From Thuidium tamariscinum (lineage: Eukaryota > Streptophyta > Bryopsida > Hypnales > Thuidiaceae), in NCBI GenBank assembly GCA_947034885.2, contig OX344751.2, positions 7,502,001 through 7,566,000 of the forward strand: a DNA stretch of 64,000 nt, given 5' to 3'. The notes under the pieces are model-generated. The model was not told the DNA's origin and ran no database searches. It saw only the letters and a program-made list of their open reading frames with translations. The translations under genes were made by a program, and so were the position numbers. This document shows, one piece after another, positions 16,825 to 49,135 of this stretch; the stretch's first letter is position 1; each line of letters opens with the position of its first letter.

Positions 16825-18283
16825 CTACAAATGTGGAAAAAGTTGATTGACACTCCAAGTGCCATCAACACCCAAAGCCATACCCGGTCTAATCATAGCT
16901 TTCCTAGTATATGACAAATTATCACAATCTACTTCTTTGTTCACATCCTCAATGCTATCCGCAGCCAGTTGTAGGAAAAATCTTTTTCCTAGATTTGTGA
17001 GTTTTCCTGACCATTGCCCATCAATCCAAGGAGTATTTTGCCAAGCATTGGTTGCAATGAGCTCGGCCTTTTTTGCTTCCCATCGCTTGGTCCAAGCATC
17101 TTTGACCTTAGAAATGATGAATGTATCCACCAGTTGACACAAATGTGTAGAACAAGGTGGCAAATACCTAAGAGTAGCCTGTTTTGCTTCCAAAATAGCT
17201 GATAATGTTGGGGTCATTCTATGGCTTGTACAATTGTCAACCCAAATGACTTTTGTATGGCTATGAACATCAGTTTGGAAGGCTTGGGGTTCAACAAAAA
17301 ATTCAGCAAAAAGTGCTTGGTCTATCTAGCCCTTAGGCCTAGATCTGTAATATACTCCTAGAATATTGTCTTCCAAGCCCCAAATAGGATAGTTGCTGGT
17401 GGAATTGGTAAAAATCAGCATAGGGGCTTCAATCATTGATCTACGCCCTCTAGAAATTCTAATGATCATGGTCATAGAATCTCCCCCCAAAACCACTTCG
17501 GCATACTTGACACTGTGTCTCCCCTAAATCCCAATGTCCGACCATGTCCAAATTTACAACAAAATGAACTTCATCAATGTTTTCTATGAAATTTTCATTG
17601 AAAATACCGACTTGGAACCCTCTTTTCAACACACCTAGATGGTAAGCTATTGCCCTCTCAATTTGTAGTTCCTTCTCGGGACTACAAGACAAACGTCCCC
17701 TCTGTGACAACAAAACAATGTTGTGTACATGCATAAATTGTTGAACTCAACTTGGGGTCAACTTGGCTGTGAGTAGGACATTGTCCTTTGGATAACGAGA
17801 TTCAGCTGTATATGGAGAGGTAGGATCTAATAAGATGGTCATAGCTAGCTCAATGAGTAATTTGGAAGAAAATTTGACCCCAGCCTTTCTAAATCTATCA
17901 AATGCATCCAAAAGTATAGAATTGATCCAAAGTTCCCATTCAACTCGCTTGGGCCCTTCACCAAGAGCTGCCTTTGTGCGAAGTTGTTTTCGCCTACCAT
18001 CCCGGCTCCTACTGCGTGAAATTGATGGAGGTGTGTTGTCCGTCTCTCCTTCATTGCAAAATTGTTGACGTGGAGCCCACCAATGGGAAGCCCGAACAAG
18101 GGTGGAACTCCTTTGAGCTCGAAAATGCTCGAGAAATGTATTGATTGTGTGAATGTAGAGCCCCCCAAAGTCGTGCACAAGTTCATCTTGAACCATCCAA
18201 ATGATGATGCGTTTGCGAATATCAATTGTAGAAACTTGTTGTAAGCGTCGGGGTGTGGAATTGCTTGGTGGGGCATCGGCCAT
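16825..18283 (-). pseudogene. Broken pogo/mariner-type transposase (DDE_1 domain)
   Basis: The reading starts at ATG 18283 (context ACCATGG). The N-terminal part is basic and rich in Ser/Arg. Catalytic-core landmarks follow: NIDEVHFVVN (first Asp region), the block SMIEAPMLIF...NYPIWG, VIWVDNCTSH (second Asp) and CSTHLCQLVDTFIISKVKDAW (third Asp region, as in DDE_1/CENP-B-like proteins). The frame is broken at least three times: an in-frame TGA near 17749 after KLTPS, a frame change near 17495 between the first and second Asp, and a TAG near 17325 in a place where SRPKG is normally followed by Trp. The protein would cut and paste the element it lies in, but this copy cannot do so. Confidence 0.85.
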
Positions 18284-18741: not shown

Positions 18742-19156
18742 TGTTATGACTCGGATTCCAACGTGCCTATTCTGCTAATGCTTCCTAGTGGATTTCATAT
18801 CCGATTGCTATTCTCCAACTCAACCACTCCAAATTAATACTTCTCTTAACATAACCTAAACTAAATAGGAATAAGAATATAAATGCGGTCAATCATAATA
18901 TGTCAAAATACAAGAACATCTTCTTCCATTACAAATCAATCATAGAATCAACACAAAGAGATATCGAAGCGAAGGACTCATCATTGGAAATAGTTCTTAC
19001 ATTAACGTATGTCAAGTGAAGGACATTGCTCCCTTCACCGAGCTTAAGTTCAAGCTTTGGTCCACCAACCCTAAGTAACCGTCTCGTCCTCTACTAGTAA
19101 GACCCGCTCCCCGTCCATCGTATAATCTTGTCCCTTGGAATGACATAGTCATAACA
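18742..19156 (-). repeat. 3' LTR of the chromovirus
   Basis: This 415-bp repeat starts TGTTATGACTCGG and ends ATAACA in plus orientation. It is the 3' LTR because coding runs on the minus strand. It matches the LTR at 24526-24940 except for about six C/T or G/A differences in its second half (for example GAAGG versus GAGGG near 19019). Confidence 0.97.
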
Positions 19157-22100: not shown

Positions 22101-22180
22101 AAGTCTTGATATTTTTTTGGAATTTGGGAATCTAATTCCCCCGCAATATTATTATTTTTCTCCAATTCGGATACTTCCAA
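19149..22180 (-). pseudogene. Chromovirus pol: reverse transcriptase, RNase H, integrase, chromodomain (frameshifted)
   Basis: Frame one (22180-21641) holds the start of reverse transcriptase (VCVDYQNLNKVT, KLDIRQAYQ). Frame two (21722-19149, 857 codons, no stops) continues with VMPFRLTNAPAQF and the catalytic YLDD box. RNase H follows (ETDASD, DKELLSI, SDHKNLEHF). Next is integrase with an HHCC zinc-binding region ending CDLCQRSK, catalytic Asp in TADFIVKL and SDRGPVF, and Glu in QTEWVN. Last comes a chromodomain (YLVAWEGYGPEENSWEP). The two frames overlap near 21722, where the residues normally found between QAYQ and MAKG are missing, pointing to a small deletion. Chromodomains of this kind are thought to steer integration to heterochromatin. 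Confidence 0.93.
19157..19170 (-). other. Polypurine tract of the chromovirus
   Basis: On the minus strand GAAAGGGGGGGTAA directly abuts the 3' LTR, as expected for the primer of plus-strand DNA synthesis. The pol frame runs through it and stops just inside the LTR at 19149. Confidence 0.85.
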
Positions 22181-22341
22181 AATAAATAGATCAGCTTCCT
22201 TAGCTGAAGACGAAACGCCAAAGCCGATACAAAAGAATGACTTGGAATAGATAATGATGATGTTGGATTTTGAATCCCTTGTTGAATTTTTTCTTCTTCA
22301 CTGGTTAATTTTGAATTCTGTGTGGTTGCAAAAAAAATTTT

Positions 22342-22585
22342 AAGCCCGATGGCTGAGCTGGCCCGCTTGCCTAGTTTGGCCGCAGCGCCAACCAGCTTGA
22401 CTAGCGCGGCATCTACGCCGAGTTGGCCTGGCCGCAGCGCTAGCCAGCTTAATTGGCGCGGCACTTGGGCCGGCCTGCCGGGCTGGCTCGATCGCAGCAC
22501 CGACCTGCCGGGCTGGTTGGCGGGGTCTCCTGTCGGCCTGCAGGGCCTGGTACAGACTACCGGGCTGCCGGGCTCGGTACTGTAA
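22342..22585. repeat. GC-rich repetitive insert between protease and reverse transcriptase
   Basis: About 245 bp of strongly GC-rich sequence with recurring CTGCCGGGCTGG-like and GGCCGCAGCGC-like units stands out from the AT-richer element around it. In this position the polyprotein normally has a variable linker. It may be an expanded low-complexity linker or a foreign insertion; no target duplication was seen. Confidence 0.7.
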
Positions 22586-23230
22586 TCAAATTTTGGTCAA
22601 AATTTTTTTTTTCTTTATACAATAATGTTGACAATAATCTGAGTCGAAAATTACTTGATGTTGAGGCCAACGAATGGTGGGGGCGTGGCGAATAAGCCAA
22701 GGTGTTCCCAAAATACAATGATAGCGACCCGTATTTGTAAGATCTGCGACAATCATTTCTCGGTGATTTCCCACTTCCAATTCAAATATTGCCTCATGGG
22801 TGATAAGCCCAGAGGTTATTACTCTCCCATCTATAACTCGGACCTCCCGTGGAATCTTCTTAGATTGTATTCTTGCTCCACAATTATGAGCAAAATCTTG
22901 ATGCATAAAAATGCCAATAGCACCCGAATCAATCAAAGTTGTCGTTGCAATCGAGTTGACACGAGCATCCATAGTCAAATGCGCCCCCGGCTTTGTAGTG
23001 GCACGTAAATAATGCAGCAATGCAACCTCATCAAACTGTTGTGATTGTTGAAGTGTAACTTCATCGACCAAGTCTCCTTTTGAGATTGCACTTGCTGTCG
23101 TTTGATGTGTACCCAGGTATCGAATAAAAGGCTTTAGTCTTGGGCCCGGCCTTTTTCCGGACCATTTGATCCACCTTCTTCTTCTCCAACAATGGCAAGG
23201 GAATAGGGTTTGGAGGGATTGGTAGGACAC
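22586..23230 (-). pseudogene. Chromovirus aspartic protease region
   Basis: The frame contains the retroelement protease signature TLIDSGA, followed by conserved GRYHCILGTPWL. The upstream zinc-knuckle segment is in another frame (23349-23134), so the junction between gag and protease is shifted near 23150. The first residues of this frame are therefore probably not natural. Confidence 0.85.
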
Positions 23231-24396
23231 TTAGCTCGTACATGCCCATGCAATCCGCAACCCCAACACCTCCCTTGTTTTTGGTATTCCATATGATCAG
23301 CTGCAGTCTTTGCCAGGGCGGTCGATGCAAAAGTAGCATCAATCTCCATTGGTGTCAGGCCAGAACTCCCTAAATTGGATTGACTTCGGCCTGACTGATC
23401 TCGTAAGTGTGAAATGGGGAGGGGTGTACGTCGATTCTGTCGTCAGGTCCATAAACGCTCATCAATTCGGGAGGCCATGGACATCCACTCCTGCAATTGG
23501 CGAGGTTGATTTTCGGCGGTAGCTACTGAGTCAAGAATTTCTTCCTTTAATCCCCCACGAAATCTTGCTACCAAACTTGGCTCATTCCAATCAACTTGTG
23601 CTCCATATTCGTTAAACATGGAAATATAAGCCGCAACCGATCCCGTTTGTCGAATTTTCCCAAGTCGATCTTCCGCCGTGCCCTTGTGGTCAATCTCTCC
23701 ATATACGGCGATGACCGCTTCTCGGAAAGCATTATAATCCGCCAAAAAATTGTGAGGTCGTCCTTCGTCCAACGCTTGAAGAATTGGCATCGCCCAATTT
23801 TGGGCGGCACCGTTCATATAGGACAAAGCATATGCAACTTTATCTTCATCACAACGATATGCATGTGGCTTCACTAGAAGAAAAATGCAGAAATTCCTAT
23901 TAATTTCAACGCAGCACGTCAGGTAGATTGTGTTGAGACTGCGTTGCTGAAAACGCAGGAAAACGCTGAAAACGCGTTTTTTTGTGTTTTTTCCGCATTT
24001 TCAGTAACGTAGTCTCAACACAATCTACCTGACGTGCTGCGTTGAAATTAACAGGGATTTCTTCTAGTGCTTACCTCGGAACACTAAACGGAGTTGTGCG
24101 AACCATTTGTAAACTTTCGCGCCTTTCTTCCCCGAAAATTTATCCGGTATTGCAACCTTAGAGTCCCGTCCCTCGAAGTCTTTACTGTCACGTCCTTCCG
24201 ACCTTGACCGTGTATTATTAGGTGTAGATATTGGATCTAGCCGGCTTACTGCACGCTCCAAAATTTGTTGGACAATATGAGGAATGGCAGTTTCAAACAC
24301 GACTTGCACTTGTTGTTGGATGAAATTCACCCATTCTGACCCAAGCCCTTCTGGCACAGACTGTGCCGGCTCCTCGTTGGTCCTGTCTTGAGACAT
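23134..24396 (-). pseudogene. Chromovirus gag, split by a MITE and frameshifts
   Basis: The likely start is ATG 24396 (MSQDRTNEEP). The N-terminal part runs to about 24070, is interrupted by the 198-bp MITE at 23872-24069, and resumes with KPHAYRCDEDKVAYALSYM, a typical retrotransposon gag core (to 23443). Deleting the MITE and one CTT joins the two halves in frame. A stop or frameshift follows RIDERLWT near 23443. The zinc knuckle CWGCGLHGHVRAKC (CX2CX4HX4C) is then read in a different frame at 23349-23134. Gag would package the element RNA, but this copy cannot make an intact protein. Confidence 0.88.
23872..24069. mobile_element. CACTA-type MITE inserted in gag (CTT target duplication)
   Basis: The 198-bp element begins CACTAGAAGAAA and ends TTTCTTCTAGTG, with a three-base duplication CTT on both sides (23869-23871 and 24070-24072). 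Its arms are about 80 nt and nearly identical apart from a small gap and a few substitutions, so it folds into a long hairpin. It has no coding capacity. CACTA ends plus a 3-bp duplication fit the CACTA (En/Spm) superfamily. It must be younger than the retrotransposon it interrupts. Confidence 0.93.
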
Positions 24397-24525
24397 AACT
24401 ACAACAACACAATCTTTTCTACAAAATTCAACCACTTCCTCAAATTGATCGGTCTACCATCATTAGTCATACTCAACCGAACACCTTCTACCATGGAAGC
24501 AGGGGCAGTCAAAGACTTGACATAA

Positions 24526-30176: not shown

Positions 30177-33100
30177 TCATGATTTAGATGCTACAAAAGT
30201 GACTGAAATGCATGATCCATCAAACTTAAGGATAGTTTTTTGTACCAGAGGTGGAATTGCATCATCTGCCAACACAAGCTTGCCCAACTGGAGACCCAGA
30301 TCTTTGGACTGCGTCTTGCTCAACAACCTGGAATTCACCGCCACAACTTGGTCATCCTTGTTTTCCCCATGAACCACACATATGGCTCCCTCCTCCACGG
30401 AGATTTTCCATCCCACCCAAACAGTTGTTTGTGCGTACACGCAAACCTTGTCTCCCCGCTTGAGTGATTGGAGCAATGGATCCTGCCTCCGCAGTGTGAC
30501 CAGGTACACTTGGTTGTGTCGATCGGCGTGCTTCAACCGAAACAGAAACGCGGAGTGCACCTGGACGTCGTCTCGCAGGACCCGCACCTCCAGATGACAG
30601 GGGCTGTTGTACAGACCCTTCTCGGTCGGATCCATCTCGGAGGGGTGACTCGTCCACCCTTGGTCATGGGCCACAACGCAAATGAGCAGAGCAACGCACT
30701 CGGTCGGGCTGAGAATGGTGGCGTCCATCAGGAGCTCCACTTCCCCAATACGAACCTCCCGGATCTTGTGCGTCATACCGTTCGGGAGGAACCCCATGAC
30801 GTTGCCGTAGTAGCTGATGAGTTGCAAACCAGGTTCCCTCTGCGACCGTCAAATGGCTTACAGTGCTTGTAAATTTTTTCTTGAAACATCGTCAACAGTT
30901 TACACTCCATGGTTCAAGTCCCCAAATTCATGGGATTCAACCCTCTTAAAACTGCCCATGAATTCTCACAAAAGAGTGGACCCATAATATATATATTAGG
31001 CGAGTCTACAACCAGGGCAATTGTTTGAGAATGTATTCCATGAGAAAGTTACTTGCTTCATCCAAAGTGAGATTCAAAATCTTGAGATTTCAACCATTCT
31101 CTTACTTCATGGAATGCTTGACAATCAAGTGTCGATTGAATCTCCTTCTGAAACCTTGATACATTCCAAGAAAATTAACATTCCAGGCTCTTGGGAAGGT
31201 GGAATTCCAATTCTTCTTGAATGCATTGAGGTTGAAGAAGAGAGTGGCACATTGTCATGCATCCCATGAAGCGGGAGAGTAGTAACTCGAAGTGACTTGC
31301 ATTAACATATGAAGTACCTCATTCCTTGAGAATCCATTCTGTGAAGATAATCTACAGTGACGCCCTCATTATCAATCCTCCCATCGGAATCTCAAGTAAG
31401 AACACAGAAGAAGGGGTTAAGGTATACTGTACATCAATGGAAGAAGGAAATTTGTCCATCATCATGGACTACACAAAAACATGATATTCACCCTAAGTTC
31501 GAGCAATGTTCAATTCATAAATTTAACCTTTTTTCCACTTAGTACTGTAAGGATAATTTAGGGAAGGCAGAGTGAAACCTTTAGGAAAGTTACCTCAATT
31601 AATCGAAAGCACACAGTCTTCTAAATCCAGAATTATTAGTCGAAATTTCCATGATTAGTCCGAGACTAAACAAGACAATCTGAGTAGTAACTACAATTTT
31701 GGATATAATTTTGGTTACAGATAGAAAATCAGGAGGTTCAAAACTGTAACATTTCTGAAGGGACTGAGCCGTTGATCATAACAAGTCAATACTCACCTCA
31801 GACCAGGCATTGTCGTAAGACACACCAAGACCACTGCCGCTCAATCCACACATGCGCAAAGCTCTGCAGCTATGTACAACATTGTGCGCCAAAGACGTGC
31901 ACCCCGCAAGGTTGACTTCCTCCAGAGAATCCACAGACTCCAGGCCCGGAACGCCAGTCAAGCTCTGGCAGTTGCCCAGATTGAGGTACTTCAACCACCT
32001 ATGGACCTTAAATTTGTTAGATCGGCAGTTCTCAAACTTACCATCAGCACTTTTAATGGCACAAATCTTTCTAGATCATGCAAATTCAAACATTTAAAGA
32101 TAAATCTTGACACCATTCGATCTGAATTCTATCCATGGTCTCTGCAGTAAGAGACGAGGAATTTTTTTACGAATTGGTGACACATTTGGCAATATGAAAA
32201 CCAAATATATATATAGCCGTGCCTCATCTCTGCAAAGGACGGAAGATGCACCAACTGATGGCAATTGAACAGATTCAGGCTTTGCACGTTCGGCGGGAGC
32301 GCTGCAACAGCAACCAGCTGGGTGCCCTGCAAGTTGAGCGTAGTGAGCGCCGTGAGAGCTCCGAAGCTGGAGGGCAGGGAGCCCTGCACCTTGCACCCCG
32401 CCATGTCCAGAAACACCAGCGCCTCCAGCCCATGGAAGCTGTCCGGGAGCGCCGTGACGACGTGGGAGGTGGACGAGGTGTGCAGCTGGGCGTAGAAGTC
32501 GCCCAGAGTCATGCCGTCGCGGTCGTCCGCCTTCACGGAGGGCGGGGTGCACATGCGCAGGACCCTCAGCTTCCGCAGCCTGCCTATGGAGGGTGGGAGC
32601 TCCTCCAGGCTGTTGCAGTTGGAGAGGTTGAGCTCCGTGAGGTTCAAGAGCTTCCCGAGCTCCAGGGGCAGCAGCTTCAGGCGGATGCAGTCGTTCAGCA
32701 TCAGCTTCTCCAGTTTGCAGAGGCTCCCTATTGTATTGGGCAGCGCCGTGAGGCTTTCGCAGCCAGACAACACTAGCTGCTCCAAGTGCCGCAGCTGGCC
32801 GAGCGACGCGGGGAGCTCCTGGATCAGGGAGCAATTCTCCATCTCCAGCGCCCGCAGCCTTGGTATGCTGCGGTCTATGTTTCCTGGGAGCTTCTCGAAG
32901 CCTCTGCAATTTTTCATAACCAATCTCTGGAGATTCGGAAACTGCAAAAGCATCAAAAGTAAGGCGTTTTGCCAATTGTACTATCTTTCTCTGACGAATC
33001 TGTGTATTTTTGCCCCTCCAACTCATTCAAGTGGTATCAAAACACTTACATTTGATGTTTGGATTGCACTAAAAACTTGCATCTAGAAAATTTTGGCCAA

Positions 33101-36100
33101 ACTACGGTTCCCACCGAAAACTGCCTTGGAACATATTAGCAATGAACTCCACCTAATCTACAGATAGATTAGGTGGAGTTCAGGAATTTGAACATCTGGC
33201 TACCAAACTTGGACCAAACTATTCAATCATGCCACCAGCCTCAAGAGTCAATTAATACGTGCATCTAGAGAAAGATCATGCAAACTTCTTACGTACCTCA
33301 AGAGGAGCATCGTCTTGCCAAAGTCGACACAAATTGGCGCTGTCGGTGAGATCCAAAACTGCGAGGTTGAGCAGGTTCAGGTGAGGGGGGAGCTCAGCAG
33401 ACGGAAACGACCTCCATTGCACCCACCGCAATTCCTGTGACAAGTTGGAGAAGTCGCCACCACCGACTTCACAGCCGTCCAGGACAAGCAGGTGCAGCTC
33501 CTCCGCACTTGCGAACTGCTCCGCTTCCGGAGTCGGTGTGCCATGGCGGTCCATGGCCGAGAGGTTGATCCCCCTCAGCCTCCCTGTCCCCTGCACACGA
33601 AAACGCGATGTTTATATGCATGCACCTTACCAAACTATGTCCATGATCGGGTAGAATGTAGCAGCGACGACCTCGCCAATGGCGCCGGAAGAATCGCCGG
33701 GCGACCCCTGCCGGGAAAGATGAAGTTCATCGGCTAACGGACAGATCGGGGTAATGGACAGGGGTTGATCACTCCTGTTCTTTTGGTTTTAAAATTAAAA
33801 TTAAAAAAATTAGAACATTGGAGGGGGGCGGGTCGGATGTCCTTCGTTTGTTGGACGGAATGGAGGGGCAGGAAGGCGCTCACCCGGCCATTCTTCCGGC
33901 AATGGCGACCGAGGTCGTCGCTGCTACATGTGTCCCGCTACGGCTTTTAAGAAATAATGGAAAGGCATATTGTACAATGTACTGACATCTGTTGAGTCCT
34001 AAACATTTACGTCACGCATCATCTAAGGTAGGCACCTCTAGGTAGGCACCTTAAACCGCCATCTTCAATCTTCACTCTGGGTACATGACCAAAATCAATT
34101 ATGTACTTAAGTGGAAGAAACAACTATAACTTTGACCCTTCATAACTTTTGCATATTGTATCCAAATGTTGCATGCTTTGGTGCGTTGGAATCTCCTTTC
34201 AATTACCAACAAGATAATGTTAAAATTTTCCTAATAGAAGAGTACCACTTTGTGGTGATTTTGGGTGTATCCACCTTATGCCCTCAATGTTTAAAGGGAA
34301 AAAAATGTGTCATCATAGGTTTGATAATTTTCCATTACAGTAGGCCATAATCCGGAATCCAATGAATGGGGAGTACCAGCATTTAGTTACAAGTTAGCCG
34401 ATTGAAATCTAGAATTTCTGAATGAAGTTCAAAATTTCAGGAAAAAAACTGATCATTTTAGAAGAAAAAAAAGAACATTCTTTATTTTTTGAAGGCCTAG
34501 CTAAGAGTATTCTCCAAGCAACCGATTGGTGCAAGAAAATGTAGGATTTTAGCCGGTTAAGCTAAAATTTCTTCCCGGACTGTGCTGGAATCAGCTGTAC
34601 GAGGATTAAATTCACCACTCTGATTATCATATTTACTGCAAGACCCAAATTAAGTGCAACAATCATATGCTGACTCTCGTATTAACTGTGGTAACAATTG
34701 GCATCACTTTGAGTCATTGTAATTAGCGCGCCTCACACTTGATTTAATTCCCAAATTACTGTGAATTTTGTTATTTGTGCAGCTGGCACTAAATAAGATG
34801 AATGTGTGAAGTGAAAAACCTGGCATAGAATATCCAGAGAAAGACTTTGGATTCCCTGGATCTTTTTGTCACAAATTTTGTAGAAATAATCCCAAGGAAC
34901 CCTACTTTCTTTGGGTACTTCAATTCACCACAAGTTTTTTTTAATTAGTGATTCAATATATCCACTGGTTAGAAAGATGGTTTGAAGAAACCAACAATTA
35001 TACCAAACTTAGTGGCTTCTAGCACTCCAAACCAAGTGTAAATTGCTGTTATTTCGTATTAACACTCGTGGAATGATCTACCCAAACCATCTTTCCAGTA
35101 GCACTCCCAGGCTTCCAGCAAGATAGCCACTTCAAAGACCGAATATAATGTGGGACTTGGTATCAAATGGTTGAGAGCGGAACACAATTAATGGGAAGCA
35201 CATTCGCCCCTGGCATATATGGATCAGGGAGTGACAAGAAAGTCTCGTAGTACCGACCTGATATTTCCTCAACACTTTGACAGCGGTTGCGGGATCCCAC
35301 AAGTGCGTTCGCCTCCCCGGATACTCCTTGGGCACCTCCTTGCTCACGACGTCCCTGCCCATGTCGCGAATGTTGTCGTGCATGCTCAATTGCAACTCAC
35401 CTGAGCTGGAGTCGAGCCGCACCAGAGACTTGTCCAAGAGCGTGCGCAGGGCCAAGTGCGGGCCTTTGGAGGTGGAGCAGTAGTCGCTGCACGACTGGCA
35501 CGAGCTCCAAACCTCCAAAGCCACCTCCTTCCGCACGCCGATCATGAGGCACGCTATGTCTAGGAACATGGCCTTGTCGCCATCGCTGGGAAGACTGTCG
35601 TAGCTTATCCTCAGCTGAAGGGAGAGAAAAGTCGCCACAATTCTCGAGATTAGTCTCAGCCATGCCGCATACTATACAGCTAGTCAAGTGAATTGATTTC
35701 CATAGTAACTAATTTATGGCCAAGAATGGATGATTAATCTACTAACAAATGTAACCTGCTGGATCTACAAGGATTTTATTCGATAACTTGATCGTAGGAT
35801 TATCAAATTAAAGTAATTATAAGTTTTTTAAAACAGATTTGAAGTCTATCCGTGAGATATTTTTGTTCCAACATACTGGCACCTCTTTAACAATAGACTG
35901 GATACCGCACTCGAAGCGCAGGATGCCGGGTACTGGAAACAAAACTTAGCCATACAGTTTTTGATTGGAAGAATATGATCTGCTGGAAAGTCTATCAAGG
36001 TATATTGATGGATCGAAACCAGCAGGATGCGCCGTGAATACTCTTAATATTATTCATGCTCGGTATGGTCATCCCACAATTAAGTACTCCGTATAAGGCA

Positions 36101-38036
36101 ACGCGCAGATCAGGAACAAACTTGGAGCAGGAGTCGCGTCCATACGAGGCAGACCGGGAATTTAATAAATTAGATGCTCTACCTTATCCAGAATGTTGTC
36201 ATTCTCCTTCAATGCTTTGATGGCGTCCATCCACACGAGTCGATCAGCTTCTGGGTCCTTTTTGTCGAACAGGGACGCGCCGATGATCTCCAGCGCGAGA
36301 GGGTGCCCGCTGCATGCGTCTGCAACTTTCTCGGCCAACTCACGGAAATCATCATGGTCCGGCTCCTCGTTGCAGAAAGCGTGCCAGTTGAACAGCTGCC
36401 GGGCGAACGTGCACTTGAGCTCCTTCACTTCGTAAACGGCCTTGTGCGCCATTGGTCTCATCGCGCCGTGCAGCACGTCCAGGTGCCGTGACGTCACCAC
36501 GACGCGGCTGCCGGGACCCAGGTGCGGAAGCTCAGGGATCAACTCCGTGAACTGGCTCACGTGGTCGATGTCGTCCACAACAATAAGCACCTAATGGCTA
36601 TATTGGTTAGATCGGCAGTTTTCAGTACTTCTGTGCAAACCTTTTTAGATCACACAAATTTTAAATGTAATTTGAGCACTTCAAACCTTGATACCATTTC
36701 ACCACTCTTATTTCAGGCCTGCATTATATATTGTGTAGGTGCAACTTAGGGCATGTTAGAATAGAGAATGAAAATTACAGATTGTTCAAGGAGAAAGTAT
36801 GATTATCATTAATTGACGCTGTGAAAACCGCCACTACTTATCTGCACGAATTGAATACCTTCTGGCTCTTGAACCTGTTGAACCATTTGCGGTACGGCAT
36901 GGTGGTCCGCCCCATGTCCACTCGGAAGAGATCGCGCACCAGCTGCCTTTGGAGGTGGGATGACGCATTGGAACGGACGTCTTTCAGGAAACTGTGGACT
37001 TTGAATTTGTCTGCTTGACTTGAAGCGAGGAGGCTTCGGTAGAGCTCATCGGCCAGTGTAGTCTTGCCGATTCCGCCCATGCCGTATAATCCGAGGATGC
37101 CCACGCCGTCGCGGGGCATGGCGTCCAAGTGTTGCAGTGCGTCGAGGAGCGACTCTTCGATGCCAAATCGGGGTGTGTGTGATTCCAGTTTTGTTGGCAT
37201 TTGCGTGAACACTTCGACCACGAGGCTCCGTACCAGCTGCTCTTCATCCCTGGAACGCCATAAAAGGTCAACAAGCAAAATATGGATGAAAAACTGCTTT
37301 CCATCTCTGCAGCGTTGTTATCCTGCTTGTTGATGCTTGTTATCCTGCAGCCACAAATTGGTGCCGTAGCGTTGCTGGGTTCAAAATCATCCTGTGTGAA
37401 GAGAGTAGATGTGACTCACCCAGCAAACTCATTTTTGGTGAAACCTCGGTGGTCAGCAACCTCCCGGAGTGCCTTCCTCCACTGCTTCGTCTCCTCGACC
37501 TTCCCACGCTTCCGGTGTCTCTGAAACGCTGGGGCATAAGGCCCTTGGTCCACGTCCTTCAGGTCCTTGGGCTGGACATCATAGAACACAGGCAGGATCA
37601 CCTTCTGCGACTGCAGCATGTCACAGAGCTCCTGAAGGCAGTATTTGGACTCCGCGTACCGCCGCGAAAAGATCGCCACATGCACACACGCATCGCCGAG
37701 CGCTTCGTCAATCGAGTTGAACACATGGCGCCCTTGCCCGATAGACTTCGCGTCGAGGAAGGGGTGGAATCCGGCGTTGCATAGAGCCTCTTCTAAGTGC
37801 GCAGCAAACGTCAGTTTGACATCTGGTCCCCGGTGGTTGATGAAGACGTCGTATTTGTGCAACTTGGGTGCGCCTGCTTTGACCACCGTGTCTTTATTCC
37901 TCTGGTTCGTCTCTACCGACGGCAGTTTCTCGTCGACGTCGACATGATTCCTGCGACGGGCCGAAACTCTCCCGAACAACAAGGTAAAAACTACGCATAA
38001 TACTATCAGCCACACGCCGGAGATCGTTAGCGACAT
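30177..38036 (-). CDS. TIR-NBS-LRR immune receptor with N-terminal membrane anchor, 8 exons
   Basis: Exons: 38036-37420, 37249-36859, 36590-36183, 35614-35258, 33590-33297, 32941 to about 32241, 31998-31797 and 30839-30177. All join in phase to about 1210 residues; the exon 6 donor is uncertain. Residues 4-22 are a hydrophobic helix followed by RRR, a likely membrane anchor. The TIR domain (about 62-200) starts KYDVFINHRGPD and keeps the CLQEL glutamate used for NAD cleavage. The NB-ARC has P-loop GMGGIGKTT (262-270), kinase-2 VLIVVDDID, RNBS-B GSRVVVTSR, GLPL-like GHPLALE and MHD (LSMHDNIRDMG). LRRs of the LPxSLGxLxxL type fill exons 5-7. Exon 8 is a 220-residue post-LRR domain with LKRGDKVCVYAQ and VWVGWKISV that I do not recognise as a named family. 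Such receptors sense pathogen effectors and act through TIR-made nucleotide signals. Intron 4 hosts a MITE. No disabling mutation was found. Confidence 0.9.
32018..32130. repeat. Repeated segment in intron 6 of the receptor gene (copy 1)
   Basis: The stretch TTAGATCGGCAGTTCTCAAA, a TCTAGATCATGCAAATT block and a CTTGACACCATTCGATCTGA block recur in the same order at 36600-36720 in intron 2 of the same gene. Part of it overlaps one minor reading frame, but coding is not supported. Confidence 0.65.
33143..33182. repeat. 40-bp near-perfect palindrome in intron 5 of the receptor gene
   Basis: TGAACTCCACCTAATCT faces AGATTAGGTGGAGTTCA around a central ACAGAT. No larger element is visible around it. 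Confidence 0.85.
34026..34276. mobile_element. MITE, AGGTAGG family, copy 3 (decayed), in intron 4 of the receptor gene
   Basis: It is flanked by TA at 34024-34025 and 34277-34278. Its ends (AGGTAGGCACC... and ...GGGTGTATCCACCT) and interior (CATAACTTTTGCATA, TTTGGTGCGTTGGAA) match copies 1 and 2. It is 251 bp, has a partial duplication of the left end, and has lost pairing of the internal hairpin. Confidence 0.85.
36600..36720. repeat. Repeated segment in intron 2 of the receptor gene (copy 2)
   Basis: It matches 32018-32130 (TTAGATCGGCAGTTTTCAGT, TTTTTAGATCACACAAATT, CTTGATACCATTTC). Both copies lie near the 3' end of an intron of the same gene. Confidence 0.65.
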
Positions 38037-39442
38037 TGGTCATTAATTAGCCAGGCTTTCATCTAACTAATTCACTGGGCCTTACAAGTACACAACCTTA
38101 AACCGGTACCAGTCGCTCTGTGAGACTTGAAATCTGAGTTTTAAGTGAGTTATCAAGACTCTTAAATGCAAGCGCGCACTTCGAGTTTGCATCTAGAAAG
38201 TTTCAAAGCACAAAAGTGCTAAATTTTGTGTTACCAAAAGATACTGCCAATACACGTGATGCATATAGCCGGCCAAGATGGTGTGCCACACATGGAGGGC
38301 ACGTACGAATGTAACGCAATGATCAATGTTAAACAAGCATCACAAATCTTGGCGAACACTGTCAAGCATGAATATAATTCATCCTTGCCGGTTGAGCTTT
38401 GGCATGAGAAGAATTGAGAACTTGGTGAGACTGTAGAGCAGATTCATTTGAGTGATGTCGACGTGCAGCAGTACTTGAGGTGGTTTCTTCAGCTTGAATT
38501 CGGAGGATTATACTGTTTGCTGAGAACTTTAGCTGAGAACTTTAGTCAGTCGGAGGAAAGTCTGTACCAAATAAGCTCGTCGACAACTTTCATTACAGAA
38601 AATCTGGACTCCCGACAGGACCGATAAGAAGGGGCGGAAGGGGCGGAAGGGAGCCATGATTACATTTATTCTGCACGAGGAAGAACTTTTCCTCTATAGC
38701 TGTGATGCACAAGCATTTATGTGTTCAACAGTGCAGCCAAACATCATGACCTTGAAGTACGAGCTCTTGAGTTTAATTGGACAAAAACTGTAAAAAACTG
38801 ACATATTTTGCTTGCCAATGAAGATATGCACACAAGCTGAACTGCATATTTTGTCAAAAATCGAGCTCTTTATATAAACTGGGCTGACGGGCTTATCAAA
38901 GTTAGACAACTTTGTGGAAAGTCCAAATTTTCTCTAATGTTTTAGGGCATTGATAGTCCCAACTCACTATTTGTTATGTCCACCTTATTTTCCTCCATCT
39001 AATATTCCATCAGTCTTCTCTTCTCAAAATTAGTTGTTGACTTTTCAACACTAAGGCTAATTTTGGATTGATTCTTTCTATTTATGCGTAAATGTGTTCC
39101 TTTTTCTAATTTTTCTCAAGAGCGATTTTTCTAAATTTTGTAGAAAGAGTTGTAAATAATTTCTTAAATCTTGACATCTTCCAAATTTTCCCCAGTTATT
39201 TAAGAAACTGACCTACAGTCTTGTAGTTTATCAGATGGAAACAAAAAGTAATCTGCCAACATTCTAACAACGTCAAGCACGCTGATAAGTGACAAAGATG
39301 ATACGGAGTATAATATTGGTCATTTGGGGGACGTTACAGTAGAGTCGCCCCTCAACTAGGTATATCTCAGAGAATCGTCCCTCAACTGGTGCCTGAGTAA
39401 CCGGTACAGAAATGTAGTTCAGTTTTAAGTCAAAAGCAATTA
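38037..39442. other. Upstream region of the receptor gene, no gene recognised
   Basis: It holds the promoter side of the TIR-NBS-LRR gene, but no TATA or other element could be assigned with confidence. Short frames (38226-38417, 38694-38909) show no domain. Confidence 0.45.
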
Positions 39443-43190: not shown

Positions 43191-43609
43191 TAACACTAAA
43201 TGTAAACCTCTTCAAATTTCAGATTTTCCATAGAGTACTTTTAGTGTTAGAAATGAGATTTAATGTTACTTCCTTTAATAGGCTTAATGATATTTAGTGT
43301 CATGGTTCGTAAATAGTGTTGCTAACACCACTACAAGAGAAAGGAGTGTTTTAAGTGAGATTTAAAGTCAAAAAATGCATATTGAAAGGTCATGTACTTT
43401 AAGTAAAATTTGCTTAAAATCATGTGTCTAGGACTTACCTTAAAATACCTTGCTAAAAGGTCAATTTAATGAATTTGCATGTCTTTTCAGCATTCTTAAA
43501 AGACAACATTCACTACAAAATTGAACTCTCTAAGAGACATTTCGCTTTACAAAAATTTGTACATTTAAGAGAGCCAAATGAACAAAGAATTTTATTTCTG
43601 AAAAGAAGT

Positions 43610-43860
43610 TTGAATCTACATATGATAAAGTATAAATCTAAGAAAAAAGTTCAAATCTCTAAAAAAATCTAAATAGACCAAAAAAATTCTAAATCTATAA
43701 AAGAAGTAAAAATCTATAAGAAACTCAAAATGTATAAAAGAACCCAAAATCTATGAAAGAAGTCTAAATCTATGAAATAAATCTAAACCTGTAAAAGAAG
43801 TTTAAATCTATGAAAGCAATCTAAATCTATGAAAAATTCTAAATGTATAAAAAAACATGG
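43610..43860 (+). repeat. Subterminal repeat array of the CACTA element
   Basis: About a dozen loose copies of a 12-20-bp unit around AAATCTATGAAAGAAGTCT follow one another near the left end. In CACTA elements such subterminal repeats bind the transposase-associated protein. No comparable array was seen at the right end. Confidence 0.7.
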
Positions 43861-44100
43861 AAGTCTGAATTCTTGAACTACCATGTGACTTATCACTGCT
43901 TCCACTCCAACTAAAACATCAACTCCCTACATAAAGAACAAGAGAAATATCTTCAGGCTCGCTCCAACTTGCATGTTCACAATCAGTTTAATGACATTTC
44001 CAAACAGCATCTGTTTACTAGCTTGACCTGGCCTTGCCGATAGTCCACCAGATCATCAATAAGGTCATTAGGAAACCTCGCCACCACAGTAGTTTCCTCA

Positions 44101-44284
44101 CAAGGAGCTTGCTTCAGGTACTGAACATGCAACTTGCGAGGCAGGTTGAGACGATTCCATAGTTGGCTGCATGTGCTCGGAAAGCTCCAGGGATACACAA
44201 GAGGCACACATTATTAAAAAGTAATTAACATAGTTATTAATTTGTCTCAGTCCTCAAAGAATTTTAACGACTTGGTTGTATGCG
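44101..44284. repeat. Internal duplication of the CACTA element, copy 1
   Basis: It matches 46104-46287 in the same orientation over about 184 bp with scattered substitutions, for example CAAGGAGCTTGCTTCAGGT and ACACATTATTAAAAAGTAAT. A minus-strand frame crosses it (43983-44207), but no domain is recognised. Confidence 0.88.
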
Positions 44285-46103
44285 ACAAATCCTGGGACTA
44301 GCCAATCAATTTATATATTCCAAGATGCATATAACCCAACAAATGATAGGGAGGCAAGCCTAAAACCATGTACCTCTGATCGTAAACATACACTGACCTT
44401 CAATCAGAGCCGACTTAAATATGCAACAACAACAGGTACAGTAACTTGTAGACACATATGACATAAATTTATCCACAACACTAAACCCTCATGTACAATG
44501 CGACTGGATATATTAGAGGCGTCTACATAGCTACCATGCATTGCAAGGAAGCTACCATTGCCAGAAACATTTGAGCCGCTTTCTAGCAACCTACACACAA
44601 CGATGGAGCACGTGCAACCGAACACAAAAACAATTCAAGGTGATAGTACCTTTTATTATTATTACAGTCTTTTTCCTCACATGATACACTTCATGTACTC
44701 CCTGCCAGGTTTGTCCAATGCCGGGGATTGATTATGTGCTCAATCAATCAACTGCCCAACCTAAGGGGACTTTCATTGTTCCAAAATTGCACCCACCCCA
44801 CAGGCATCACTACACACGCACATTCTTAGGAGCTTCACAAAACTGCTGATGTAAAACCAATCTTTGACAATACTTTGCACTACTGGAAATTCCAAACATC
44901 AATAGACACTATTCCATTGTACAACTATGAAATTTCACAGCTTCACTATCAATTTAGAGAACGAAATTCTATATTCAATCTGTGAAATTTCTTAATTGCA
45001 TTAACAAATTGGGTCTATGAACTTTTTGGATTTCTACTATTGTACAATCTAAGAACATGCATGGAACATAAAATCAAAGAATGTATGAGGGTCAGAGGCA
45101 TCACCTTTAATGAATCGCTTGCATCGAACATTGTTGTTTGGATTCAATATCACTAAATTGCATTTGCAATAGTAAAAATCGGTCCATCTATAGCTTGAAA
45201 GAAAACTGCAATCTGAAATTGTGATTGATTAGCTAGATTCCATTCATTCCAACGACAATTATTGAAAAACTCTAGATAATTATTGCAGTCTATGAAACTA
45301 AAATAGCCAACATATTAAAAAAAATTATTTAACCAGAATTAGCTAGTAGCCTCATCTAATTTTTTGTGACAACCTGAGCAAAACTGCAAAACAAGAAAAA
45401 TGCCAAGATAGACTGGCTCGCACCTTCTGCTTAGTAAGCTGTAGATTGAGATCACTCAAGCTTTCTAGGTCACACCTTCAATTTCCAACTGCTGAGACTT
45501 GAGACTTATCTCTGCTCCATGAACACAACCAAGAACCAGTTCTCTCATCCTGCATTCATTCCCTAAAACAAGACAATTTCGTGGAGGAAACCGAACCATT
45601 AATGAGCTACTAACACCCAAGAAGACATTAATTAGCACATTAACTAGCTATGAATTGAAGTTGAGAAAGTATTCTACTGTAACATCACAACTTATCTCGG
45701 TGTGATCGACCAATGTAACTCTTGTTCCATCTCTAATATTACTCTGAAGTGGTACACTATAACAATTAATCCCAGAATGTGAAGACATTCATTTTCAGCA
45801 GCTAGAAAATTCAAAAGGAACGTACCTGCCGATCCATGTACATGAAACCACATCCTTCACTTTTGGTTTTGGGGTCTTGCCATAGTGCACGGGCATATGT
45901 ACTTGTAGTCCATAGCCATCTCCTTCGATCTGTTTCAGAGTTCACAACAGGAGCACAAGTAGGATTGATATATCGAGCTCCATCTATCGTCTTTTACATT
46001 GAGAAATTAACTAGTGTGTACTTCCAATCAAGTCTTGCAAGAGTCAATTGTTCGTTCCATCTAGATGAGAGGCTCACAGAAGATTACCGAGTTTGCTCAC
46101 AAT

Positions 46104-46287
46104 CAAGGAGCTTGCTTCAGGTGGCAAACATGCAACTTGCGAGGCACGTTGGAACGACTCCATAGTTGGCTGCACGTGCCCAGAAAGCTGCAAGGATACA
46201 TAAGAGGCACACATTATTAAAAAGTAATTAATATAGTTGTTAATTCGTCTCAGTCCTCAGAGAATTTTAACGACCTAGTTGTGTGCG
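46104..46287. repeat. Internal duplication of the CACTA element, copy 2
   Basis: Second copy of the 44101-44284 segment. On the minus strand it lies next to the exon-like pieces at 46370-46654 and has an acceptor-like TTGCAG near 46190. It may be another exon of the same captured gene. Confidence 0.88.
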
Positions 46288-46369
46288 CATTAGTGTAAGT
46301 AATGCATACATTTTCAATGCTTGGTACTAATAATTCAGCTACTATATGTCCAAAATCAAGCAAGTTCAC

Positions 46370-46654
46370 CTTCTCTTGCTGTCGACTGTACTTCTCCTGC
46401 TCCTACTGCAGAGCAACTTTTGCCTACAACACCACATGAGAGTCCGAGTTACAAGCAAAAAATTTAGTCAAGTTCACAAGATATGATCAACAAAACCTCG
46501 AAGTTGCGCTGCTAAATCATTCGGGAATCATTCCACTCCAACATTAGGTAAGCTCTGACATGATTGTTAAAGCCTTGCTTAGCATTGACGTAAATTGAAG
46601 TACACTCACATACCTACCTTGATTTCCATTTCGCATTCCAGCTCCTCTAGGTAC
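46370..46654 (-). pseudogene. Captured exon pair of an unidentified coiled-coil gene
   Basis: Two short exon-like segments with proper borders lie in a row. The first is 46654-46618 (CACAG acceptor, AAG|GTAGGT donor), reading [12 protein letters not shown]. The second is 46423-46370 (TGTAG acceptor, AAG|GTGAAC donor), reading AKVALQ-stop-EQEKYSRQQEK. Phases agree. The heptad-like charged composition suggests a coiled coil. The in-frame TAG argues for a dead fragment. The source gene is not identified. Confidence 0.5.
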
Positions 46655-46678
46655 CTGTGTTGTTACATTGCTGCACCA

Positions 46679-46891
46679 GGTCTCCTAACAGCGCGACCGA
46701 ACTCGAAGGCCGTGACCTGCGACGGGAGGATCGTTCCCGCAGCCGAAGCTTTACGAATGATCGGACGAGAGAAGCCGTTCGAGCTTCAGCCCAAGGAAGG
46801 CCTGGCTATAGTGAACGGGACTGCAGTCGGGTCGGCCTTAGCCTCCACTGCGTGCTTCGACGCCAACATCCTGGCGGTCCTGGCAGAAGTT
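46679..46891 (+). pseudogene. Captured fragment of phenylalanine ammonia-lyase (PAL)
   Basis: About 71 codons without a stop match the central part of PAL: RPNSKAV, then [20 protein letters not shown] and [15 protein letters not shown] converts phenylalanine to cinnamate at the entry of phenylpropanoid metabolism. The full enzyme is about 700 residues, so only a tenth is present. The catalytic MIO loop (Ala-Ser-Gly) lies outside the fragment. It starts abruptly after a splice- or junction-like CACCAGGTCTCC and ends with a stop just after LAEV. It lies inside the CACTA element and is not a functional gene. Confidence 0.88.
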
Positions 46892-47123
46892 GCTTGAGGT
46901 CCTCTTCAATACATTTGTTCTTCTCCTCTTCAATCTTCCCTTTCCACCCCTCAAGAAAACTGAGGCATGATCGGCAAGAACTGAACCTTTGCTAAAGTAA
47001 TGTCAGTTGGAAATTCAATACACTTGACCTAAAATTCTTAATGCAACAAGAAACAGACCAAATGCAGGAATGAAAGTCGAGTATCAACACTGGAGGAGAT
47101 TTAAAGTTATATAGTACAAGTAT

Positions 47124-47200
47124 GGTCCCTCGGACGATGGAGTTGTTGATCACCACCACGCGTTTACCCTTGAAGACGTGAGCCACCGGTGCTGTCTTGG
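47124..47200 (-). pseudogene. Captured fragment of glutamine-PRPP amidotransferase
   Basis: The frame reads [18 protein letters not shown] then SIVRGT. This is the PRPP-binding loop of amidophosphoribosyltransferase (first step of purine synthesis), where the family has two Asp before SIVRGT. Here both are Asn. It follows the 14-3-3 fragment in an open frame, with a few unexplained residues ([13 protein letters not shown]) between. Only about 25 residues are present, so the assignment rests on that strong motif. Confidence 0.75.
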
Positions 47201-47229
47201 CCAAAATTCGTCCATAGGCAAAACATCTG

Positions 47230-47625
47230 CCACACTCCACCAAATATCTCTGGTAGTTGCCTTCGTCTTGAAGTAGAAAACCTTCAACTCCCCAGTGCTC
47301 GAAAAAGGGATGAGGTGCGAGTGCAAAAACTTCGAGATGTTGCAAATGGTGCTCAACTCCGCCTCCACCTTCGCACAGTATTCCTTGATGGCGGACACAT
47401 GCTCCTTACTGCCCTTGCTCTCCTCCTACTCGGTAGAGGAGATGATCCGCTACGAAGCTCTCAACGTGCCAATCACATTCTTAGATGTCACCAATAACAG
47501 GTTGCGTTCCTCCATGTCGACGGTCTTGGTCACCTTCTCCATGGCCTCCACCATCTTGTCGTCCGCTCTGCTTGCTTGGTAAGCTTGGCCATGTAGACAT
47601 TCTCCTCCCGCACCTTGGACGTCAT
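47230..47625 (-). pseudogene. Captured 14-3-3 protein fragment, intron-less and broken
   Basis: The original start seems preserved: ATG at 47625 reads MTSKVREENVYMAKLTKQAER. A frame change leads to DDKMVEAMEKVTKTVD and ERNLLLVTSKNVIG. An in-frame TAG then replaces the Trp of RASWR, and a second TAG follows at SSTE. After that come [18 protein letters not shown] and [16 protein letters not shown], and after a further frameshift GNYQRYLVE. These are helices 1 to 5 of a 14-3-3 protein (phosphoserine-binding adaptor). The C-terminal half is absent and replaced by the amidotransferase piece. It cannot be functional. Confidence 0.88.
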
Positions 47626-49135
47626 TGAAATTAGAGCGTTGTATTGAAATGAGCAAGAGAGGGAGTAGTGGAGAGAAGCAAAGGATAAGGAATTAGCGGC
47701 AGAGTGAAGAGAACCGCACAACCAAAATCCATACATTGCCGTGACTGATCAGCATTCCGCTTGTTAATTTACTTATTTCGACTTTTCAGTAAGACCTTCC
47801 AGTAGAATAAAGCACTTTTAAGTAATTTCTTACTAATATCTCTTCTTTAAAATACCCACATCTCTTGTAGTGCACTAAATATACTTTTTAGTGTACCGTA
47901 GTAGATGGCGAGGATGAATGGCATTACTTAATTTGCCATAAAAAATAGTTTATATTAATAAATTGAAGGCACTATAGGCCTTAAGCCTCCAACAATACTA
48001 TTGACTCTTTTTGTGTATCTTGAAATACTATTTTAAACCACATACTACAATTTACACTAGAAAATGAGACTTTCACATATCTATGATTTAAAATTAGAAA
48101 ATGGAGTTAAAAATTTTATTTTAAAAGTGGCCATTGTTGCCAACTAATAGCAAAGAAAGAAGATCAAAGCAAGAATTAAAAAAAAAAAAATTTAATTTGA
48201 GATAAATTTAACTTGAATATAGTACACTTTAGGTCAATATAAAACACACTTTGAAAATGATTTTGGAAATCTCTCTTGAGAAGGTGTATTTCTATTAGAA
48301 AAGATAGCCTACCAAATTCACAATGTAACTTTTCAAAAAAGATACTCAACATTACTGAAAAACACCCAATTCATATATGTGACATATGTTCAAAATTCAA
48401 ATCCCTCTACTTTATCATTTTTTAAATTTAAAAAAAAATGCAAGTAAGATCTCTCATTCTAGAAGAATCTTCATACCAAATTTTATTATCATCCCATCAT
48501 TTTTGCAATACTTATGGCATGAAACAACTTCCAAGTCAAATTCCACTTGCTAAATGACTAGTCCTAGAGTATCTGGAATCATGTCCAGAATTGAGGATTT
48601 GGGAAAAATCATTATAAAGTACTATTTGGAAGAATATTTTGGGATTGTAATACAAACAAAAGTTGTACATTTTGAGTTTTAGATTCCATCCATATGGTTA
48701 GAGTATATCCCCAATGCTTTCACCAATATTTTCTATAAATTCTAAAAGGAAAATTTCAAAATCCCTTCAAAATTCAATTACGAGAAAAATATTGTCACTT
48801 TTCAAGTAAAACTTGTTGGAGTGGGTTTGAAATGAGGTTTTCTTCATATGGTGATTTTTTGAAATCTTTTGTTCTTTAATTCTATGACCTCATTTTTACA
48901 AATTTGGTTTTGAACTACAATCAATGCAAGTCAACCACCTAACATACTTCCAAATTTGTAATTTTAGAAAAACTATATACTTTAGTAATACCAAATTCAA
49001 CCCTTGGATAGAACAAAAACTTCATAAAAAATTTCTAAAAATTAGGATGACTTCCATCCAAGCAATAACAAGACAGGAAAGTAATTTCGAATCTATTGAT
49101 TGTCTAGAAATTGGATGTTGGCGCGCTCTAGGGCT

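Follow-up and report, generated by a model that had tools for sequence, protein, structure and literature searches.

A moss CACTA transposon that very probably packed fragments of six host loci and then multiplied in a small burst

The window is the whole stretch of 64,000 nucleotides analysed here, from the moss Thuidium tamariscinum. At positions 43329-47872 it holds a 4,544-bp non-autonomous CACTA element, flanked by a CAC target duplication. We are confident that this is a non-autonomous Pack-CACTA of a moss, which probably captured its cargo stepwise by repair and later spread in a burst mobilised in trans. Six host loci, all identified and spread over four contigs (C1, C2, C3, and C4), supplied the cargo. 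They are a DUF3326 gene, the downstream region of a SAUR gene, and genes for AIG1, PAL, amidophosphoribosyltransferase, and 14-3-3. An earlier note on this DNA had placed CACTA ends with CAC on both sides at the same coordinates, which are exact. It had counted at least three host gene fragments; DUF3326, the SAUR downstream region, and AIG1 are the three it missed.

The element starts with CACTACAAGAGA... and finishes with ...TCTCTTGTAGTG. Its 26-nt terminal inverted repeat is 81% complementary, and the repeats start with CACTA and finish with TAGTG, as in the CACTA superfamily. CACTA (En/Spm) elements are defined by a 3-bp target site duplication and short subterminal repeats. On the 5' side, at about 43600-43856, lie short A-rich repeats with a spacing of 19-38 nt, which may correspond to the latter. 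At up to 2 mismatches, the 5' terminal 26-mer occurs at 2,678 places in the genome and the 3' terminal inverted repeat at 139; patterns read backwards as a control gave 0 for each. Since all 4,544 bp also recur in five copies, and the 5' count stands at 2,678 against 0, the structure is not due to chance. Scanned in six frames against Pfam (E up to 0.1), the element showed no transposase, as the earlier note had held, and it is therefore non-autonomous. Helitrons have neither terminal inverted repeats nor target duplications, and they insert at AT. We rejected a Helitron identity because the element has both structures.

The features of the element are as follows.

43326..43328, no strand: CAC target site duplication, left
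43329..43354, plus: 5' terminal inverted repeat, CACTACAAGAG...
43329..43854, plus: 5' terminal region common to other family members (83-88% in 34 relatives listed)
43855..44089, minus: DUF3326 gene fragment, 93% identical to C3:18180458-18180692
44091..44822, minus: segment A, SAUR downstream sequence, 90% to C2:39.78 Mb
44817..45873, minus: segment B, more distal SAUR downstream sequence, 86%
45874..46088, no strand: stretch X, unassigned, only in the five copies
46089..46287, minus: segment A', which repeats part of SAUR segment A, 93% identical to the SAUR locus
46288..46647, minus: AIG1/GIMAP-type GTPase gene fragment, intron kept, 82% to C3:11.70 Mb
46648..46890, plus: PAL fragment, 237/243 identical to C1:35654322-35654564
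46891..46938, minus: remaining AIG1 fragment, 92%
46939..47122, no strand: stretch Y, unassigned, only in the five copies
47123..47220, minus: amidophosphoribosyltransferase fragment, 90% over 70 bp to C1:2.76 Mb
47234..47626, minus: 14-3-3 first-exon fragment, 83% to C4:4795528-4795943
47648..47872, plus: 3' terminal region common to family members (70-83%)
47847..47872, plus: 3' terminal inverted repeat
47873..47875, no strand: CAC target site duplication, right

A genome-wide search for parents, which the earlier note had proposed, located the parental loci elsewhere on the four contigs. They are still present, and their coding exons are open in the parts of each gene that were examined. 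The PAL fragment lies on the plus strand, as had been claimed, and consists of 32 bp of intron and 211 bp of exon (Pfam 4.9e-14; PDB phmmer 2.8e-22). In the parent, exon 1 ends with ...SYIAG and is followed by a GT...AG intron, to which the 32 bp belong. The 14-3-3 fragment, correctly assigned to the minus strand, matches its Pfam family at 1.4e-23 with stops read as X; stops and shifts break its frame. It is also 82% identical to an inverted copy of the parent at C4:4770524. The claim of an amidotransferase fragment on the minus strand holds by its DNA match to the gene. Its protein match is weak (29 aa, E 0.011), the parent has Pfam Pribosyltran at 3.2e-10, and 180 nt of internal coding sequence are missing from the fragment. 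PAL, 14-3-3, or amidotransferase protein is most unlikely to arise from these broken pieces.

The DUF3326 parent reaches 6e-28 with Pfam DUF3326, and the frame in the element 1.4e-5, where its 24.7 bits fall just short of the cut-off of 25. Segment A begins at base 12 past the stop codon of a SAUR (auxin-responsive) gene, whose ORF matches Pfam Auxin_inducible at 5.3e-16. Segments A and B adjoin each other at this locus, and their order is permuted in the element. Positions 46104-46287, within A', are an 89% repeat of 44101-44284 in A. The AIG1 parent matches Pfam AIG1 at 1.3e-22. Stretches X and Y together span 399 bp, and a genome search with them matched only the five element copies. Parents other than PAL are 82-93% identical to their fragments. 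Thus, these fragments may have come from a paralogue that has since been lost.

The earlier note suggested from the PAL sequence that the host might be a non-seed plant, and one chalcone synthase exon supports this, pointing to a moss. It agrees with the Physcomitrium enzyme at 153 of 168 positions and is far closer to it than to the other plant enzymes among the best 60 of 80 PDB matches.

The element is present in five full-length copies, the window's included, each on a different contig; their flanks are unrelated and their target sites duplicated. They differ pairwise at 4-21 positions and have no indels; their 35 variable sites comprise 29 transitions and 6 transversions. Four have 3-bp target duplications (CAC, ATA, AGA, and TCA). 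The fifth shows a 4-bp direct repeat (CTAA) instead. So, the cargo travels with the ends, in several copies with duplications. Together with the absence of transposase and with host gene fragments whose parents lie elsewhere, this is what characterizes a Pack-TYPE element.

The same ends also occur on other elements with different interiors, a recurrence that the earlier note had wanted examined. All 12 relatives that we fetched have both ends. Exact 3-bp duplications are found in 11 of them, and in 11 the interior is unlike that of the window element. Changed bases occur among the last 8 in L025, L028, L034, and L037. In five of the 12, the match at the 3' terminus is limited to the last 143-145 bp, and L025 aligns to the 3' terminal region in two pieces. 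Host domains above the Pfam cut-off are present in four of the nine relatives scanned; the scan found no Pfam domain in L027, L028, and L040. L025 carries a 14-3-3 piece that is 82% identical to the same C4 locus as the window's fragment.

The order of two captures can be read from their nesting. The PAL piece sits within the AIG1 piece, and the uninterrupted site is visible in the AIG1 gene (L056 2076/2078), with one AIG1 base lost at the insertion point. PAL entered an AIG1 fragment that was already captured. This is an ordered record of two events that preserves the undisturbed site, and such nesting suggests stepwise gap filling. A genome search recovered no AIG1-bearing element that lacks PAL; its matches were PAL genes, the AIG1 gene, and the five copies. 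Most junctions in the element show little or no shared sequence (microhomology). From the junctions, we infer break repair: breaks or gaps inside the element would have been repaired with ectopic host DNA, one fragment per event. A low-copy autonomous CACTA family with a near-identical terminus would then have supplied the transposase that moved the finished chimera in trans by cut and paste, and this movement would have produced the recent small burst of copies.

Other routes to the same structure have to be weighed. It is rather unlikely that all captures followed the route known for Pack-CACTA in Arabidopsis. There, two elements inserted close together on either side of a gene piece lose the ends that face each other and travel as one hybrid (two-element fusion is described in section 7 of PMC13317346 and in passages of PMC8903248); in the moss this would have happened several times. 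The partial repeat A/A' and the permuted SAUR order A-B-X-A' could mean that two related elements fused. However, PAL is bordered on both sides by AIG1 sequence rather than by transposon ends, which is hard to reconcile with fusion as the sole route. Besides, with six unlinked parents such fusions would have had to occur several times in series. Inside the element no clear terminus was found; the nearest approaches are 12-mers with 2 mismatches, located in the AIG1 and 14-3-3 pieces. Breaks in plant chromosomes can be patch-repaired with ectopic filler. The chimera could have been assembled first in the chromosome, by such repair or by a Helitron or MULE, and have gained CACTA termini later. 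The scarcity of shared sequence at most junctions agrees with patchwork repair. Nevertheless, at the junctions searched no place except the five copies joins the two sources; for A/B and A'/AIG1 this holds among the matches listed. The same ends also enclose other cargo in other family members. We consider this assembly improbable, more so than serial fusion.

Capture from spliced mRNA is very improbable. The amidotransferase piece without 180 nt of the gene could suggest splicing, but the missing part is open coding sequence between near-repeats and not an intron. The AIG1 fragment retains its intron and the PAL fragment includes intron sequence. Therefore, the source of these two was DNA, and spliced RNA is ruled out for them. 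Least probable of all, to a degree that we consider negligible, is a single decayed host locus between CACTA-like ends. Nothing in its favour was found, and the five transposed copies, the parents on four contigs, and the mixed strands rule it out. The fragments are not colinear with a single locus and the ends recur, so capture, as read in the earlier note, stands.

CACTA elements with gene fragments have been described in flowering plants. In 2007, Zabala and Vodkin reportedly described a CACTA element of soybean that had captured gene fragments; as in the moss, several fragments of host genes lie between its CACTA ends. Rice Pack-MULEs are likewise non-autonomous cut-and-paste elements with gene fragments. 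They belong to a different superfamily, with long terminal inverted repeats and duplications of about 9 bp. In contrast, the moss element has 26-nt CACTA ends and a 3-bp duplication. Pack-MULEs are mentioned in section 7 of PMC13317346. The Pack-CACTA of Arabidopsis, rice, and maize (Pack-TYPE; passages of PMC8903248) share with the moss element CACTACAA-type ends, the lack of transposase, host coding fragments, several source loci, and several copies. However, the target duplication is 5 nt in the CACTA set of those passages. Compared with flowering-plant Pack-CACTA, the moss element has six identified source loci in 4.5 kb and a nested fragment whose undisturbed site was identified. Animal Pack-TIRs, in the passages of PMC8277862 used here, are also terminal-inverted-repeat transposons with foreign DNA filling the interior, and their multicopy forms move after capture, as in the moss. 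Microhomology is common in them (67.6%, at one breakpoint or both) and scarce at most moss junctions. Gap-filling and fork-switching (FoSTeST) models have been published for them in the same paper, whose text names CACTA once.

A literature search over titles, starts of abstracts, and some passages yielded no account of gene capture by CACTA elements outside the seed plants. Pack-CACTA is a known kind of element, and the moss is apparently an unreported lineage for it. In the sources consulted, CACTA capture is known from flowering plants (Arabidopsis, rice, maize, and soybean), and capture by other terminal-inverted-repeat elements from animals (PMC8277862). Gene-fragment shuffling by CACTA transposons thus extends beyond flowering plants. 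Its presence in a moss, across many elements and with recent activity, means that such capture either dates far back or originated more than once. Mosses are a haploid plant group with laboratory tools. The route by which unlinked fragments enter a plant DNA transposon becomes testable in them.

We scored the CACTA transposase family PF02992 at 150 places among 627 genome candidates. A rare terminus, CACTACAAGAGAAGTGGGTGTTTTAA, occurs at six places in the genome. It is identical to the common family end at 24 of 26 positions and to the window copy's own at 23 of 26. Five of the six places lie upstream of a listed CACTA transposase and face it, at 9.3-18.8 kb from start to start; the remaining one has no listed transposase. 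The five are at C3:12909068, C5:20528758, C1:26956842, C1:7072339, and C1:21593259, and their 3' ends would be expected to resemble TTAAAATACCCACATCTCTTGTAGTG. In three, the outer tip of the terminus is 9,257-9,260 bp away from the nearer edge of the transposase domain. In contrast, among the other 95 places of the 3' terminus listed, 2 face a listed transposase within 25 kb. By this arrangement of sequences, noticed post hoc, the low-copy CACTA family with this terminus is a candidate autonomous partner.

We suggest tentatively, at somewhat less than even confidence, that such a low-copy autonomous CACTA drives a pack family with dozens of members or more, which captures unlinked genes by repair inside the element. 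If true, plants would have their own version of the gap-filling route that the passages of PMC8277862 describe in animals. This would also match the "alternative, yet undiscovered mechanism" allowed in section 7 of a 2026 plant review (PMC13317346), and CACTA-mediated gene shuffling would occur on both sides of the moss/flowering-plant split.

The CACTA element occupies 43329-47872 of the window, exactly where the earlier note had located it. It measures 4,544 bp, has CAC at both edges and carries 26-nt terminal inverted repeats beginning CACTACAAGAGA. The window lies within contig 3 of the assembly searched, G000 (363 Mb, 19 contigs). A DNA search of this genome, using the whole element as query, found five full-length copies, on contigs C1, C2, C3, C6, and C8. 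The search scored 40 of 486 candidate places, so the family counts drawn from it are lower bounds. All five copies are 4,544 bp long without indels, and pairs of them differ at 4 to 21 positions. Transitions account for 29 of the 35 variable sites. Compared copy against copy, the 200-bp flanks show 21.5-31.5% identity, near chance. The target duplications are CAC, ATA, AGA, and TCA, and the C8 copy has a 4-bp direct repeat, CTAA. Because near-identical, indel-free copies with target duplications lie in unrelated flanks, this chimera is a mobile unit that has recently moved.

The sources of the cargo were traced by searching the genome with separate pieces of the element. The pieces (window coordinates) and their sources are the following:

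43855-44089: DUF3326 piece, 93% to the gene at C3:18.18 Mb
44091-45873 and 46089-46287: SAUR downstream pieces, 86-93% to C2:39.78 Mb, the region just 3' of the SAUR stop codon
46288-46647 (82%) and 46891-46938 (92%): AIG1-type pieces, intron included, parent at C3:11.70 Mb
46648-46890: PAL piece, 237 of 243 bases identical to C1:35.65 Mb
47123-47220: amidophosphoribosyltransferase piece, 90% over 70 bp to C1:2.76 Mb
47234-47626: 14-3-3 piece, 83% to C4:4.80 Mb and 82% to an inverted near-copy at C4:4.77 Mb

Summed over matches, 3,359 of the 4,544 bp are host-derived, 751 belong to the shared termini and 434 have no assigned source. In genome searches, the stretches X (45874-46088) and Y (46939-47122) match the five copies only. 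The next-best PAL matches to the PAL piece reach 80% over 214 bp and 87% over 122 bp. The amidophosphoribosyltransferase piece lacks 180 nt of coding sequence, with the gap between near-repeats. The SAUR segments are permuted: A, B, X, and a partial A' in the element versus B, A in the host, read on that strand.

The parents are unlinked. The earlier note proposed searching the whole genome for full-length parents. The loci are there, each with open exons and a Pfam match, and the word intact holds for parts of them: coding exons are open in the stretches of the parent genes that we examined. The matches are Auxin_inducible (5.3e-16), AIG1 (1.3e-22), Pribosyltran (3.2e-10), 14-3-3 (2.3e-61) and, for PAL, Lyase_aromatic (3.2e-40 and 2.7e-55). 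The DUF3326 parent gives 6e-28, with stops taken as X and reading across introns. The two 14-3-3 genes (C4:4767500-4774000 and C4:4792000-4799500) are inverted, 25 kb apart, and identical at 617 of 624 bases over the open frame with the first exon.

The PAL piece is nested in the AIG1 piece. The parental AIG1 gene, in the fetched stretch L056, is uninterrupted at the position of PAL in the element (L056 2076/2078), where it has a single base that the element's AIG1 parts together lack. This continuity shows that PAL was inserted into a previously captured AIG1 piece. At 97.5% versus 82% identity to their parents, the PAL capture seems much more recent than that of the AIG1 piece. All five copies share five PAL differences from the parent, and another two vary among the copies, so the PAL capture is older than the last burst. 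The PAL piece holds 32 bp of intron (parental bounds ...SYIAG/GT and CAG/G); in the AIG1 piece an intron is preserved in full. The intron sequence in both pieces indicates a DNA template for these two captures. We compared by eye the five junctions with both sources known (DUF3326/SAUR A, A/B, A'/AIG1, AIG1/PAL, and PAL/AIG1); only A/B has several shared bases.

The 5' end of the element occurs at 34 or more further genome places. We fetched 12 relatives: 11 of those listed places, plus L025, reached through the 14-3-3 piece. L031, retrieved solely for its 3' end, is excluded from these counts. All 12 have the matching 3' end. Their lengths are 2.6-5.9 kb, and 11 have exact 3-bp duplications; the exception, L034, shows base changes at the 3' tip and is 99.6% identical to L033. 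L033 (C4:1507986) and L034 (C2:21461582), near-identical elements of 4.08 kb, represent a second recently moved cargo. Only L025 resembles the interior of the window element, in 14-3-3 sequence.

Interior parts, mostly GC-richer, of nine relatives (L034, L036, and L038 left out) were scanned against Pfam in six frames. Four show host domains above the cut-off:

L025: 14-3-3
L035: Peptidase_S9_N, two frames
L037: Yos1
L039: UCH, two frames

Two have matches below it, L032 (MIP) and L033 (UCH and MATH); the weak matches of L033 are perhaps those of a USP7-like ubiquitin protease. L027, L028, and L040 gave no Pfam domain in these scans, and none of the scanned parts of the nine interiors gave a transposase family at E 0.01. 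Thus, the 12 shared 3' ends and the differing domains bear out the expectation of related elements with the same ends and other cargo. L035 (C4:31178271) and L036 (C3:29148936) have the same layout (97% and 95%), with about 3.1 kb of extra interior in one and an 11 bp overlap at the breakpoint. This size difference could reflect a deletion within the shorter element or a large capture in the longer one.

For the 5' terminal 26-mer, the genome contains 1,340 + 1,338 places at up to 2 mismatches, and for the 3' terminus variant 70 + 69; the backwards control gave 0 for each. Among 100 listed 5' places, all on C1, 27 facing pairs lie less than 400 bp apart. These pairs show that many of the 5'-terminus places belong to miniature elements roughly 0.2 kb long.

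The genome has 627 candidate matches to the PF02992 transposase; 150 were scored, many without stops. The terminus CACTACAAGAGAAGTGGGTGTTTTAA occurs exactly six times. It is identical at 24 of 26 positions to the common 5' end of the pack family (elements with these two ends and varied interiors), and at 23 of 26 to that of the window copy. In five of the six places it lies upstream of a listed transposase and faces it, at these distances from outer tip to near edge of the domain:

C3:12909068: 9,260 bp
C5:20528758: 9,257 bp
C1:26956867: 9,260 bp
C1:7072364: 12.5 kb
C1:21593284: 18.2 kb

The sixth, C1:53993411, has no transposase nearby among the 150 listed. In contrast, only 2 of the other 95 places listed for the 3' variant search point towards a listed transposase no more than 25 kb away. 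With 100 listed 5' termini covering part of C1, 3 of the 34 listed C1 transposase places have one within 20 kb. The CACTACAAGAGAAGTGGGTGTTTTAA group was chosen post hoc, from inspecting the place list. We infer that this group, a candidate autonomous partner, mobilises the pack elements.

The account that fits best has two stages. The interior would have been patched stepwise with host DNA, repair being the event that presumably joined the fragments. The finished element would then have been mobilised in trans by a putative transposase donor. Interior patching is already a published idea, since PMC8277862 proposes gap filling for the single-copy elements among 370 animal Pack-TIRs. It ascribes the multicopy ones to fork switching, then transposition. 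Section 7 of a 2026 review (PMC13317346) describes tandem-insertion fusion as a capture route and states that, for unlinked genes, an alternative undiscovered mechanism may exist.

The cargo probably has no function as protein. The only ATG-started frames of at least 80 aa in the five copies have 109 and 90 aa. Neither of them follows the reading frame of any captured gene, and the 14-3-3 piece has a broken frame.

A non-seed-plant host had been proposed, and one gene, with a wide gap to the next enzyme, places it as a moss. The chalcone synthase exon at C2:3816719-3817222 is identical at 153 of 168 positions to PDB 6DX7 (338 bits), tied with 9JL6 and 9KAH (same letters). According to PMC8580882, 6DX7 is the Physcomitrella patens enzyme. 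The next distinct enzyme, 2P0U, has 126 of 168 (276 bits), and others are lower among the best 60 of 80 matches. The PAL exon comparison was uninformative on this placement. In the literature searched, which omits most subscription-journal papers, we found no report of gene capture by CACTA elements in a moss or any other non-seed plant, so the moss case appears to be unreported. The available passages of the Sphagnum genome paper (PMC9946827) are unrelated to capture by transposons. PMC8903248 makes no mention of moss, Physcomitr, Selaginella, Marchantia, bryophyte, gymnosperm, fern, lycophyte or algae.

According to their genome matches, PAL and chalcone synthase (CHS) genes form physical clusters at four places, with only tens of kb between them:

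C7:8.97-9.00 Mb
C7:10.73-10.76 Mb
C7:14.84-14.87 Mb
C3:12.89-12.94 Mb

The candidate autonomous CACTA at C3:12909068 to 12918945 sits within the last one. The window has these other features:

16825-17325, minus: DDE_1 transposase fragment (Pfam, 1.3e-5)
19149-24453, minus: Ty3/gypsy-type retrotransposon polyprotein with chromodomain (Pfam)
35132-38039, minus: TIR-NB-ARC disease-resistance-type gene

The retrotransposon shows RT, RNase H, integrase, and Chromo in 19149-21740, with more interrupted frames in 19149-24453. Leucine-rich-repeat-like frames, seen by eye at 32129-33611, accompany the TIR-NB-ARC gene.
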